NCBI RefSeq assembly: GCF_009746125.1
Contig: NZ_CP041352.1
Coordinates: forward strand, 4,076,436 to 4,140,435
Reading direction: 5' to 3'
DNA from: Casimicrobium huifangae
Lineage (GTDB): Bacteria; Pseudomonadota; Gammaproteobacteria; Burkholderiales; Casimicrobiaceae
Length of the DNA stretch: 64,000 bases
Positions 5,436 through 12,044 of the stretch are shown here, one piece after another. Within the stretch, counting starts at the first letter, position 1. Each line of letters begins with the position of its first letter. Under the pieces are notes generated by a model. That model saw only the letters and a program-made list of their open reading frames with translations, did no database searches and was not told the origin of the DNA. A program made the translations under genes and the position numbers.

Positions 5436-6785
5436 CTACACACTGCTCGCCAGCGGCAAACGCACGCGCGCCACAGTCCCGCCGCCCGACCGTGGCAACA
5501 GGTCAAAGCTGCCGCCATGCCATTTCGCCAGCCGCTCCACGATAGCTAGACCGAGGCCGGCGCCCATCGTGCCGCCGCGCGCATGGTCACCGCGCACAAA
5601 GGGCTGCTTGAGGCGTTCGACATCGCCCGCGCTGACGCCGTCGCCAGCGTCGAGCACGTCAATATCAACCATCGCGCCGTCGCGCCGAACCGCCAGCTCG
5701 ACAGGTGGTTTGCCGTAGCGGTGCGCGTTTTCAATCAGGTTCATCAGCATGCGCTCAAACGCCGCCGGATAGGCGTTGACAACGAGGGCCTCCGGCCCCG
5801 GCTGCCAGGTCACCGGCAGATTGCGCGACGCGGCCTTGTGCGCGATGGCGCCGAGCACGATCTGCAGATCGGCCTGCTCGGGCGCCTCTTTCGGCGTGCC
5901 GCGCGCGAAGTCGAGGAACTGGGTGACGATGCGGTCGATCTCGTCAATGTCGGCCGCCATCTCGTCGCGGCTTTGTACGTCGTTGACCGAGATTTCGCTG
6001 GCCAGACGCAGCCGTGTGAGCGGGGTGCGGATGTCGTGCGAAATGCCGGCCAGCATGGTGCTGCGATCCCGCTCCAGTTGCTCCAGATTGGCCGCCATGC
6101 GGTTGACGTTGCGGGCGACACGAGAAATCTCCTCCGGGCCATCCACGGGCAGTGGATCGGGGCGCTTGCCTTCCGCCACCTTGTCCACCGCGTCGGCGAG
6201 CTCGGCCAGCGGTTTCGCCAGGCGGCGGGCGAACCAGTAGGTACCGGCCAGCAGCAGCAGCAGCACAGCGCCCAGCGTGATCCACAGGCGGGTGGGCACT
6301 TCGCCGGAATCGACGTTGCGGATCGGGAATCCGGCCCATACGCCACGCGTATTGCCCTCCGGCCCGACATTGAGGCGAATCCACACCACCGGCTGGTCCA
6401 TGCGCATGCCGAGCCGCACCTCGGTGTCCCGACCCAGCTGCTCCTGCAGTTTGTCCACCAGCGGCTGCAGCGCCGGACCGCGTGGCATCTGTCCGATCTC
6501 GGGCCGGCGATCGACCGGCACCAGCAGCGCCCCGTACTCGCGGCCGACCATCTGCAGCCCCATGAACGGGCGCCCGGAGCGATCTTCAGCCGCCATTTTG
6601 TTTAGCGCGTTACGCAACGCCTCGATCTGCGCGATCTTGGCCTCGGAGAAGTTGCGCGCGATCAGCCCGGCGCGGTCCTGCCGGAACAGCAGCACCATCG
6701 CCAGCACGGCAATGGTCAGCGCCACCAGCAGCAGCGCCACCATCCGCCAGAACAGGCTGCGCGGCATCGCGCCCAGCTTGCTCAT
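5436..6785 (-). CDS. EnvZ-type sensor histidine kinase
   Basis: 449 aa inner-membrane sensor kinase. TM1 is near residues 12-34 (MVALLLVALTIAVLAMVLLF), a periplasmic sensor region of about 130 aa follows, TM2 is near 165-185 (LWITLGAVLLLLLAGTYWFA), then HAMP, HisKA with the phospho-acceptor His in AGISHDIRTPLTRLRL (near residue 248), an N-box LMNLIENAHRYG and G-box GAGLGLAIVERLAKWHGG. The ISHDIRTPLTRLRL sequence is of the EnvZ/RisS type. It starts 9 bp after the response-regulator stop codon in a two-gene operon. The signal sensed is unknown; the divergent Spy/CpxP-like gene points to envelope stress. Confidence 0.93.
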   Translation of the reverse strand: MSKLGAMPRSLFWRMVALLLVALTIAVLAMVLLFRQDRAGLIARNFSEAKIAQIEALRNALNKMAAEDRSGRPFMGLQMVGREYGALLVPVDRRPEIGQMPRGPALQPLVDKLQEQLGRDTEVRLGMRMDQPVVWIRLNVGPEGNTRGVWAGFPIRNVDSGEVPTRLWITLGAVLLLLLAGTYWFARRLAKPLAELADAVDKVAEGKRPDPLPVDGPEEISRVARNVNRMAANLEQLERDRSTMLAGISHDIRTPLTRLRLASEISVNDVQSRDEMAADIDEIDRIVTQFLDFARGTPKEAPEQADLQIVLGAIAHKAASRNLPVTWQPGPEALVVNAYPAAFERMLMNLIENAHRYGKPPVELAVRRDGAMVDIDVLDAGDGVSAGDVERLKQPFVRGDHARGGTMGAGLGLAIVERLAKWHGGSFDLLPRSGGGTVARVRLPLASSV

Positions 6786-6794
6786 CGCGATGGG

Positions 6795-7502
6795 TCAATC
6801 CGGCACGAACACATAACCCCGCCCCCACACCGTCTGGATGTAGCGCGGCTTGCCAGCGTCCGGCTCAACCAGCTTGCGCAGGCGCGACACCTGCACGTCC
6901 ACCGCGCGGTCGAACACTTCGTGCTCCTTGCCGCGCGCCAGCATCGACAGCCGTTCCCTCGACAGCGATTCATGCGGGTGGGTGACGAACACTTTGAGCA
7001 TCGCAAATTCGCTGGTCGTCAGATCCTGAACTTCCCCGGCGCGAGTGAGCGTGCGGGTGGCGAAGTTGACTTCGCAGTCACCAAAACTGACTGGCTGATC
7101 AGTTGACAGGGGCGCACCGGGGGCTGCCTCGGCAACGCGGCGCAGCACCGCATGCATGCGCGCCACCAGCTCGCGCGGGCTGAACGGTTTCGGCAGATAG
7201 TCGTCGGCGCCAGCGTCGAGGCCGTCGATGCGCTCGTCCTCCTCACCCTTGGCGGTGAGCATGATGATTGGCGTGCGGTCACCGCCACCGCGCAGGCGTT
7301 TGCAGACCGCGATGCCGTCCTCATGCGGCATCATCCAGTCGAGCACGATCAGGTGCGGCGGATCGCGCTCCAGCCGCCGCGCCAGTTCGCGCGCGTCAGG
7401 CAGGCTGGTCACGCGAAAGCCCTGTTCGGTCAAAAAGCGCTGCAGCAAATCACGCAGCCGCTGGTCGTCATCGACGATGAGAATATGGTGCGATCCACTC
7501 AT
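6795..7502 (-). CDS. OmpR-family response regulator
   Basis: 235 aa. The receiver domain has the acidic pocket DDD at residues 11-13, phospho-acceptor Asp55 (LIVLDWMMPHEDG) and the conserved Lys in DDYLPKPFSPRELVARMHAVLRR. The C-terminal winged helix (residues about 140-235) has the family patterns LTTSEFAMLKVFVTHPHESLSRERL, VDVQVSRLRKLVE and VWGRGYVF. The receiver is closest in feel to OmpR/RisA (LRDLLQRFLTEQGF). It pairs with the EnvZ-like kinase downstream. Tandem GCGCTTACAA boxes in the divergent promoter are its likely binding site. Confidence 0.93.
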   Translation of the reverse strand: MSGSHHILIVDDDQRLRDLLQRFLTEQGFRVTSLPDARELARRLERDPPHLIVLDWMMPHEDGIAVCKRLRGGGDRTPIIMLTAKGEEDERIDGLDAGADDYLPKPFSPRELVARMHAVLRRVAEAAPGAPLSTDQPVSFGDCEVNFATRTLTRAGEVQDLTTSEFAMLKVFVTHPHESLSRERLSMLARGKEHEVFDRAVDVQVSRLRKLVEPDAGKPRYIQTVWGRGYVFVPD

Positions 7503-7650: not shown

Positions 7651-8142
7651 ATGAATGCATTGCACAGGCAGACCGCACACTGCCGTCGCTGGCTGGCCGC
7701 ATTGCTGCTGGCCGCTGCGACCACGCCTGCCATGGCACAGGTACCACCGGGCATGCCGCCGGTGGGATTACCCTATGGCAACTACTTCGCGGCGGTGAAA
7801 GCGAAGCTGAACATGACGCCGGCGCAGGACGCGCAGTACACCGTGGCCCTGAAGGCGACGGTCAAGGCCAATGACGCCGCCCGCAAGGCGCGCACCGCCG
7901 CGGCGGACGCTGCCAAGGCCGAGCTCGCCAGGCCGGAGCCCAACTTTGAGCGCCTGCTCAACATGCGCGAGGAATTCAGCGAACTGAGCGCGAACGAGCG
8001 CAAAGTCGCTATTTCGGAATGGGTCAGGTTTACCCAGATGCTGACTGCGGAACAAAAGGCACTGGTCAAGGGTCAACTCCTTGATCGCGTCTCTCGCGCA
8101 GAGAACCTGCGTGAAAAATTTCGGCAGCGCCGCGGGGGCTAG
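7651..8142 (+). CDS. Spy/CpxP-like periplasmic protein
   Basis: 163 aa. The ATG is preceded by a perfect AGGAGG. A signal peptide (RWLAALLLAAATTPAMAQ) is followed by a short Pro/Gly linker and an all-helical, highly charged mature part. Helix pairs resembling LTxxQ motifs are present (LNMTPAQDAQY near the start and MLTAEQKALVKGQLLDRV near the end), as in the Spy/CpxP family of periplasmic chaperones and metal-stress sensors. It is divergent from an OmpR/EnvZ-like pair, the same logic as cpxP next to cpxRA. It is followed by an intrinsic terminator. Family assignment is moderate because the motifs are short. Confidence 0.65.
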   Translation: MNALHRQTAHCRRWLAALLLAAATTPAMAQVPPGMPPVGLPYGNYFAAVKAKLNMTPAQDAQYTVALKATVKANDAARKARTAAADAAKAELARPEPNFERLLNMREEFSELSANERKVAISEWVRFTQMLTAEQKALVKGQLLDRVSRAENLREKFRQRRGG

Positions 8143-8197: not shown

Positions 8198-8222
8198 AGC
8201 CCGGCTCCGGCCGGGCTTTTTT
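8198..8222 (+). terminator. Intrinsic terminator after the Spy-like gene
   Basis: A 7-bp stem AGCCCGG (8198-8204) / CCGGGCT (8211-8217) with a 6-nt loop, followed by six T residues. It lies about 55 nt after the stop codon of the Spy/CpxP-like gene. Confidence 0.85.
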
Positions 8223-8319: not shown

Positions 8320-8348
8320 TTGACAGGACTGTTCAGGAACCCTAATAT
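8320..8348 (+). promoter_or_regulatory. Strong sigma-70-type promoter of the small RNA candidate
   Basis: A consensus TTGACA (8320-8325), an optimal 17-bp spacer, and TAATAT (8343-8348). Transcription should start near 8355. No open reading frame with a ribosome site follows before the terminator at 8445-8472. Confidence 0.8.
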
Positions 8349-8354
8349 GACATT

Positions 8355-8472
8355 TGCATACTTCAGACGACTTCTCTTCTAGGTGTGCCCCTTTGAGACC
8401 ACCCCCTCGATACACCTCCGGTCTTATCAGGTCTCTCAGGACTCAGCCCGCGCTCTCCGCGGGCTTTTTTTT
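8355..8472 (+). ncRNA. Candidate small RNA of about 118 nt
   Basis: A complete stand-alone transcription unit: the promoter at 8320-8348 and an intrinsic terminator at 8445-8472, with no plausible coding frame between them. The predicted RNA has a hairpin closed by GAGACC (8395-8400) / GGTCTC (8430-8435). The enclosed loop is C-rich and contains ACCCCCTC and ACCTCC, sequences complementary to Shine-Dalgarno sites. That arrangement resembles trans-acting regulatory RNAs with anti-SD loops. I do not recognise it as 6S, 4.5S, tmRNA or RNase P RNA. Function and targets are unknown. Confidence 0.6.
8445..8472 (+). terminator. Intrinsic terminator of the small RNA candidate
   Basis: An 8-bp perfect stem AGCCCGCG (8445-8452) / CGCGGGCT (8458-8465), a 5-nt loop and eight T residues to 8472. 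Confidence 0.9.
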
Positions 8473-10591: not shown

Positions 10592-12044
10592 CTAAAACGG
10601 CATGCGCGGCCCGGCCGCCGGCGCGACTTTGGCCCCGTTGCGCGTGTCCTGGGTGCCGACGATCACCTCGTCACCCTCTTTCAGAGCACCGCTGAGCATT
10701 TCGCTCCAGGTACCGTCACTGAGTCCGGTTCGCACCTCCACCGGCTGCGGTTTGCCGTCGCCAGGCAACACGTAAGCATGACCCATCGACATTGCCGCGA
10801 CGGCACTGTCGCGACCGCCGGTTGCCGGCCCCTTGCCAGCACTTCGGCCCTCGTCCGCCGGCTTGAAACGCAGAGCCGCGTTGGCAATCTTGAGCACATT
10901 GTCACGACGGTCTACCGTGATGCGCGTATTCGCCGTCATGCCCGGCACCAGCGCGAGGTCGGGGTTGTCCGCCGAGATGGTGACGACGTAAGTCACCACG
11001 TTCTGGATCACCTGCGCCGCCTTGCGGATCTGGGTGATGCTGCCGCTGAAGTTGCGGCGAGGGAAGGCATCCACTGTGAAGCTGGCACGTTGGCCCACCT
11101 TGAGCCGTCCGATGTCTGCCTCGTCAATCGAGGCCTCGACCTGCATCGCACGCAGATCCTGCGCAATGATGAAAAGATCCGGCGCCGACAAACTCGCTGC
11201 CACCGTCTGCCCCGGCTCCACCTTGCGCGCGATGACTACACCGTCCACCGGCGCGCGGATCGTCGTTTTCTCCAGGTCAACCTGAGCCGACTGCAGCGCC
11301 ACTTCGCGCTGGCGCACGTTGGCCTGTGCCGACGCGACCTGCGCCTCCTGCGTGCGAATGCTCTGCTCGGCCAGCGCCACCTGCTCGGTCGCTGTCCGGA
11401 ATGTCGTCTCGGCCTTGTCGAGCTCGGAGGTGCTGATGAATCCTTTGCCGACCAGATCCTTCTTGCGCTGCAAATCACGATCGGCATCGGCCAGTGCGAT
11501 CTTCGCCTTGCCAAGCTCGATACGTTGGCCGGCCACACTGTTCTGCTGCACCCTTGTCGAGCTCGGAGGTGCTGATGAATCCTTTGCCGACCAGATCCTT
11601 CTTGCGCTGCAAATCACGATCGGCATCGGCCAGTGCGATCTTCGCCTTGCCAAGCTCGATACGTTGGCCGGCCACACTGTTCTGCTGCACCAGCGCTGCG
11701 CTGCGCGCTGCATCAAGGTCGGCGCGAGCCTGACTGATCCGCAGCTGGTAGCTCTCGGGATCAATGCGCGCCAGTACCTGCCCCGGTTTCACGTTGCTGT
11801 TGAAATCGACCAGCACATCCTTCAACTGGCCGGAAATCTGCGAGCTGACGGCGATGGTCTTTACTGCGTTCAGTGTGCCGCTGGCGGCCACCGTCGAGAC
11901 GATTGTGCCGCGCTCGACCTTGGTCAGTCGATACTTCACCTGCGCACCATCGCCGTCGTCGCCAAGCCACCACCATCCGGCGAGTGCCAACAACACAGCC
12001 GACGCCACCAGGGCGGTCGGAAGAAAAAATTTCTTGCCATTCAT
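10592..12044 (-). pseudogene. MacA-like periplasmic adaptor, frameshifted by a 139-bp tandem duplication
   Basis: Membrane-fusion protein of an ABC efflux system. The N-terminal TM anchor (FFLPTALVASAVLLALAGWWWL) is followed by the lipoyl/barrel-sandwich half (GTIVSTVAASGTLNAVKTIAVSSQISGQL), an alpha-hairpin, the second lipoyl half (APVDGVVIARKVEPGQTVAA) and beta-barrel/MP domains. The hairpin-coding part contains the same 139 bp twice (11413-11551 and 11552-11690). 139 is not a multiple of three, so the frame from the start ends at 11475 after 25 nonsense residues. Removing one copy leaves exactly 438 codons, giving an intact 437-aa MacA. As written the gene is inactive. It could be a recent mutation, a reversible switch or an assembly error. 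No Shine-Dalgarno is obvious at the chosen ATG. Confidence 0.85.
11413..11690. repeat. Exact 139-bp tandem duplication inside macA
   Basis: Copy 1 is 11413-11551 and copy 2 is 11552-11690; the two are identical by eye, and identity extends 2 bp (CC) past the junction. The unit codes (minus strand) for part of the alpha-hairpin from VQQNSVAGQR to STSELDK. It is the sole cause of the frameshift in the adaptor gene. Confidence 0.92.

Follow-up and report, generated by a model that had tools for sequence, protein, structure and literature searches.

A predicted small RNA with a frozen C-rich hairpin module beside an envelope-stress-type system in one genus of uncultured Burkholderiales

The locus at positions 8320-8472 of the window, the whole stretch of 64,000 nucleotides of Casimicrobium huifangae DNA that was analysed, is almost certainly a small RNA gene, whose transcription is predicted from its sequence and that of its relatives. 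It represents a new RNA family of a known kind, in which a frozen module is carried on a changeable stem and holds a conserved place beside an envelope-stress-type system. By analogy with RNAs of related bacteria, we consider it fairly probable that this trans-acting RNA represses selected mRNAs through anti-Shine-Dalgarno pairing of two C-rich segments. The features of the locus and its surroundings are as follows.

5436-6785, minus strand: sensor histidine kinase (HAMP, HisKA, HATPase_c), a conserved neighbour
6795-7502, minus strand: OmpR-type response regulator (PF00072, PF00486), a conserved neighbour
7651-8142, plus strand: Spy/LTXXQ-like periplasmic protein, a conserved neighbour
8198-8217, plus strand: terminator of the upstream Spy-like gene, separate from that of the RNA
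8320-8348, plus strand: sigma-70-type promoter TTGACA-17-TAATAT (TTGACA 8320-8325, TAATAT 8343-8348)
8355-8472, plus strand: predicted small RNA gene of ~118 nt, 5' end placed from the promoter, supported by fold and homologues
8356-8388, plus strand: hairpin 1, its sequence varying between clades while the hairpin is kept
8390-8440, plus strand: hairpin 2, with a covarying outer stem (GAGACC/GGTCTC, CACGCC/GGCGTT, AGCGCC/GGCGCT)
8399-8431, plus strand: invariant block CCA(C)CCCCTCGATACACCTCCGGTCTTATCAGG, 32 columns identical in 15/15 homologues, one C being an indel
8402-8408, plus strand: C-rich segment 1, CCCCCTC, predicted unpaired
8409-8428, plus strand: predicted small inner hairpin GATACACCTCCGGTCTTATC, invariant in the 15 homologues
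8413-8419, plus strand: C-rich segment 2, CACCTCC, predicted partly paired, the same heptamer as in L115, a member of Rfam family RF02278
8445-8472, plus strand: intrinsic terminator, an 8-bp stem (8445-8465) followed by a run of 8 U, the first of them paired

A preliminary description had read this locus as a stand-alone small RNA gene, and its relatives bear this out at the level of sequence, with a conserved promoter, a covarying stem, a terminator and no common coding frame. The near-perfect promoter it named is present at 8320-8348, and TTGACA-17-TAnnnT stands at the same place, with the same spacing, in all 15 homologues that carry the exact core (window included). The strong intrinsic terminator recurs as well, its stem and U-rich tract being kept in 15/15, and the ~118 nt in between, described as lacking a coding frame, hold no frame common to all 15. 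Each homologue shows the same layout of promoter, 5' hairpin, hairpin 2 and terminator, with inferred transcript lengths of 111-126 nt. Promoter matches of such quality numbered 2 in 7 kb, versus 1.0 ± 0.9 in shuffles, and terminator matches 7 versus 4.9 ± 2.4; a single promoter match, not being rare, is weak evidence, so the case for a gene rests on conservation. The predicted fold of RNA 8354-8472 has an energy of -40.7 kcal/mol (z = -4.87), a stability that none of 200 shuffles reached, and full-length fold z values across the 15 homologues range from -2.79 to -5.35. Own promoter, own terminator, conserved fold and missing coding frame are together the features of a trans-encoded small RNA gene.

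The 5' hairpin is better than chance throughout, with just 0-30 of 500 mononucleotide shuffles folding as well in each of the 15 homologues (mean z -2.85); an earlier test, in which the stem was cut short and dinucleotide shuffles were used, was uninformative (mean z -1.09) and was repeated on the longer stretch. MAFFT aligns hairpin 1 and the terminator wrongly across clades, and the covariation count was therefore confined to hairpin 2. There, both sides changed in 6 of the 9 outer-stem pairs among 14 distinct rows, and the covariation score reached 0.284, versus 0.131 in column shuffles (0/500 reach it) and at most 0.102 with slid partners. Two simpler counts in hairpin 2 did not exceed column shuffles, namely pairs with double changes (43/500 reach the count) and further pair types (493/500).

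On this changing stem sits the invariant block, in which the C-run is one base shorter in 7/15 homologues, while at fourfold-degenerate sites the spy, regulator and kinase genes next to it in 12 other genomes show only 35-74% identity to those of the window. The hairpin closed by GAGACC/GGTCTC had been described as presenting CCCCCTC and ACCTCC; all of these elements are present, but ACCTCC is predicted to lie partly inside the small inner hairpin and not to be fully open. Regarding anti-Shine-Dalgarno design, CCCCCUC is predicted unpaired and CACCUCC just partly so, both being invariant in 15/15 apart from one C. The seven inner pairs of hairpin 2 never vary in the 15 homologues and hence give no information on their pairing, and with 3/7 of them marked broken in the model alignment of a diverged copy (genome G008), the inner hairpin is unproven.

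The gene is single-copy in its own genome of 4,465,898 bases, and its exact core is found in 15/17 genomes of the genus. A covariance search in relatives, which the preliminary description had suggested as a check, was positive within the genus: the hairpin 2 model, R1, matched 16/17 genus genomes and 0/47 other genomes of the family, the sixteenth homologue being the diverged G008 copy with 35 bits. Across 399 genomes of the order, R1 found genus members only, 5 of the 6 in the set; the searches of the 47 family and 399 order genomes used stricter filters, by which some weak matches are lost. Among 100 relatives searched by DNA sequence, 18 genomes gave matches; 15 of these belong to the genus, and the matches in three genomes of other genera (G026, G028, G045), like a second match in G004, cover the terminator part alone (query 136 onward). 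An exact 21-mer scan of 84,980 species returned 14 contigs, equal in length to those of the 14 other exact-core genomes and all titled as Burkholderiales, Betaproteobacteria, Proteobacteria or Pseudomonadota bins. Two one-mismatch 16-mers occurred in other genera (G026, G103), versus four such matches for a reversed-pattern control. Within the sets searched, the RNA is restricted to one genus of uncultured Burkholderiales.

Two genomes of the genus, both of ~2.5 Mb, stand apart, one (G008) with the diverged copy and the other (G016) with none found. The G008 copy keeps CCCCTC, ACAC(C/T)TCCGGTCT and TCAG and has lost the rest of the invariant block; its outer stem of hairpin 2 remains paired with other letters, and by eye its promoter reads TTGACG, 16 nt, TAATAT. 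In G016, inspection by eye of the 100 nt around two weak model matches (E 2.1 and 3.2) revealed neither a promoter nor a terminator. These two genomes may mark the edge of the RNA family.

We propose that a trans-acting small RNA would be transcribed from its own housekeeping-type promoter and ended by its own terminator, and that the top of the covarying hairpin 2 would hold CCCCCUC and CACCUCC ready to pair with the Shine-Dalgarno regions of selected mRNAs. Such pairing would block translation, with Hfq probably bound to the U-rich 3' end; the genome encodes Hfq (104.2 bits), and the RNA has the U-rich 3' end, a run of 8 U, that would be expected of an Hfq-dependent RNA. That the 32-letter core stayed fixed while its surroundings changed suggests silencing by pairing with ribosome-binding sites, as in RNAs of related bacteria, and the mechanism is drawn from likeness of design to S17, the double-hairpin RNAs and NmsR. 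In line with pairing, a covarying stem surrounds a frozen 32-column block amid neighbours that have diverged at their fourfold sites; counting against it, a frozen stretch of 32 nt exceeds the needs of a 7-nt seed, and CACCUCC is partly paired in the predicted fold.

Target tests used start regions from ~10% of the genome (the window plus 400 kb). For 280 long ORFs, core pairing at starts minus gene interiors came to 2.15, versus 1.79 ± 0.35 in 30 shuffled cores. A second set comprised 261 genes filtered by codon-position GC, with crude starts, and none of its tests was significant, shuffles being as good in 5/40 cases for segment 2, 3/40 for both segments and 13/40 for segment 1; segment 2 and the two segments together leaned in the expected direction, and segment 1 did not. 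Since a positive control with the 16S tail was not enriched at starts either (25/40 shuffles as good), the start-region test has little power, start calls being too poor or Shine-Dalgarno use too sparse. The motifs GGAGGT, GAGGTG and AGGTGT occur in 1.9% of the 261 crude start regions versus 1.5% inside genes. Shine-Dalgarno-like 4-mers are found in 21% of the 261 crude start regions, versus 3% and 7% in control stretches, a proportion that suggests either sparse use or poor start calls.

Searches of the genome for near-complements of the core gave 9 versus 7 and 8 versus 10 for reversed-pattern controls, the gene itself being counted once each time. Six of the 15 non-self sites were inspected; all lie inside or antisense to long frames and none at starts, and among them no single extended target or cis-antisense partner was found. 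The proposal that the RNA pairs with ribosome binding sites of many mRNAs thus divides: pairing as such is plausible by analogy, but start regions did no better than shuffles, in a test whose 16S control also failed, and as near-complements are no commoner than in controls, broad action on many mRNAs is unsupported.

The main rival to anti-Shine-Dalgarno pairing, although we hold it to be improbable, is that an RNA-binding protein recognises the frozen top of hairpin 2 and is titrated or guided by the RNA, mRNA pairing being secondary. Thirty-two invariant columns in a covarying stem do look like a recognition element, and complementarity to start sites is not enriched. RNAs that act as CsrA sponges, however, carry repeated GGA motifs, and by eye none are seen here, while the G008 copy loses part of the block yet retains the C-rich and UCCGGUCU parts. 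Besides, a similarly frozen stretch of 27 nt belongs to the target-pairing part of S17 (PMC11722255). A bolder proposal, to which we give a still smaller chance, is that the top of hairpin 2 could be a ready-folded recognition module of ~30 nt, frozen throughout the genus and carried on an interchangeable stem. Working as a single unit, it would bind a protein or engage the ribosome or mRNAs as a mimic of the 16S anti-Shine-Dalgarno tail, and would be the RNA arm of the kind of envelope-stress system in which CpxQ acts elsewhere.

At curated thresholds, no Rfam family was found in the whole window, and a tRNA/tmRNA search returned none; with permissive E-values, Rfam matches reach about half their threshold or less, the best ones resting on the terminator. 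The preliminary description had staked its claim on the region being neither a protein gene nor a known housekeeping RNA, and the absence of a common frame together with Rfam scores below threshold throughout the window agrees with it. Among the papers listed by literature searches, none was recognised as describing this RNA.

The closest family is RF02278, and descent from it, the RNA being a diverged member of this S17/bdhR/toxic RNA group that replaced the usual copies in the genus, is a doubtful alternative. The RNA is the sole RF02278 match in its own genome at E <= 0.1, scoring 26.4 bits, and it has CACCUCC and the GA-UCA(A)GCCCG entry to the terminator in common with L115. Additionally, members over the cut-off are missing from 17/17 genus genomes, as from the one other family genome searched, and are found in 5/12 genomes of other families in the order; under the preferred pairing reading, this RNA may therefore fill their niche. 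However, the score stands against a curated cut-off of 50 bits and comes mostly from the terminator, and sub-threshold matches of this kind occur in 6/14 control genomes. Model R1 in turn matches nothing outside the genus in the 399 order genomes, and seven RF02278-type loci (six over the cut-off, one below) are without a Spy, regulator or kinase match within ~1.5 kb. The RF02278 RNAs examined begin with a C/U-rich strand, continue with a small hairpin whose loop is C-rich and end in the terminator; the short double-hairpin form with a UGUCUCCUC 5' strand is not found here, as this RNA has three hairpins and a different 5' strand. Membership was rejected on the score and the R1 result, and the resemblance is likeness of design. 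The same search also showed another C/U-rich RNA candidate, L111 1501-1565 (G013:C43:5797-5861), which has CCTCCTCCTTT blocks before its terminator and an RF02278 score of 22.7 bits, below the cut-off.

The envelope-type neighbourhood noted in the preliminary description, an OmpR/EnvZ-like system and an envelope-stress protein, is widely preserved: kinase, OmpR-type regulator and Spy-like gene lie upstream of the RNA at 12/15 other loci, or 13/16 with the window, a count taken from tblastn, as the ORF caller behind the neighbour maps picks wrong frames in places. The Spy-like protein falls just under Pfam cut-offs (LTXXQ 22.3 versus 24.3 bits, Metal_resist 25.4 versus 29.2), and 2/3 of the orthologues scanned pass that of LTXXQ. 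A LuxR-type regulator stands instead in G003 and G007 (by eye), with weak kinase matches, and the G008 locus has a different gene setting. This linkage suggests that the RNA may take part in an envelope response. Downstream, the window has a macB-type permease on the minus strand, and relatives vary, with tolC or mac-type matches and, by eye, RND-type efflux components, a BepA-like M48 peptidase and others. A perfect tandem duplication of 139 bp lies at 11413-11690 of the window, within a macA-like gene, its two copies 100% identical; 139 bp does not divide by three, and the gene is represented by two overlapping ORFs. The duplication looks recent, or is an assembly artefact.

We consider it very unlikely that the RNA belongs to a neighbouring gene, as its leader, attenuator or 3'-UTR fragment, and is not independent. 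The promoter does follow the stop codon of the Spy-like gene at a distance of ~180 nt, on the same strand, and in Enterobacteria the 3' UTR of cpxP mRNA gives rise to CpxQ (PMC4817254). By a simple scan, a terminator-like site separates the Spy gene from the RNA at 10/13 Spy-linked loci (weak in G015), the remaining three (G004, G005, G013) showing none. Against such an origin, the RNA has its own promoter in 15/15 homologues, the Spy gene in the window ends at a separate terminator, and the RNA persists in G003, G007 and G008, where no Spy neighbour is detected. The next gene downstream runs the opposite way in the window and is of another kind in relatives. The 3'-UTR fragment was rejected as the main reading on the promoter, the terminator and the Spy-less loci. 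A small protein is scarcely credible and was rejected: a GTG at ~8383 opens a 50-codon frame running through the terminator, and several relatives have a start codon near there, but the one-base indel in the C-run puts relatives in different frames; frames from that position run from 3 to 107 codons, and none is common to the 15.

Anti-Shine-Dalgarno pairing being the preferred reading, several known RNAs offer models. S17 of Bordetella pertussis represses targets in an Hfq-dependent manner near ribosome binding sites; S17S arises by RNase E cleavage of a longer transcript and is reported to occur across the Betaproteobacteria, and a stretch of 27 nt in S17/S17S is fixed across species (PMC11722255). 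The RNA described here shares with them an intrinsic terminator and C/U-rich sites, which in S17 are two and occupy the 5' end, as a single strand, and a hairpin loop (PMC11722255). In this comparison by description, our RNA differs from S17S in that an additional 5' hairpin precedes its module, a covarying stem encloses it, and only one genus was found to have it. The double-hairpin RNAs ncS27 and bdhR1 expose C/U-rich unpaired segments complementary to ribosome binding sites (PMC5688073). Like these and RF02278 RNAs, our RNA has C/U-rich segments and a hairpin before the terminator; it differs in loop sequence and in having one copy per genome, where three to five are reported in Burkholderia (PMC5688073). 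The anti-hemB family RF02837 (Burkholderia RNA 7) likewise combines a terminator with a CUCC-containing segment, but the RNA reaches only 23.6 bits versus its cut-off of 49.5 and is not a member.

Neisseria NmsR A/B carry two anti-Shine-Dalgarno segments, both fixed across meningococcal genomes, and, like S17, they combine a C/U-rich single strand with a C/U-rich hairpin loop (PMC5362039). Three stem-loops and two such segments, one of them in the loop of stem-loop 2 in NmsR, unite the two systems; NmsR consists of two siblings with the first segment between stem-loops 1 and 2, whereas here both sit atop hairpin 2 (PMC5362039). After S17 and NmsR, this would be another case of two anti-Shine-Dalgarno-like segments frozen in evolution. 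It also brings to a little-studied group of uncultured Burkholderiales a small RNA family that Rfam 15 lacks, backed by a covariance model and matches in 16 genomes. As with CpxQ, a CpxP/Spy-type gene under a two-component envelope-stress system has a small RNA as its partner (PMC4817254). CpxQ, however, derives from the cpxP 3' UTR (PMC4817254), whereas the promoter found in 15/15 homologues and the protein gene's own terminator in the window set this RNA apart from one made at the 3' end of a chaperone mRNA. Should the association with the kinase, regulator and Spy-like genes prove functional, envelope-stress systems would have gained an RNA arm on more than one occasion.
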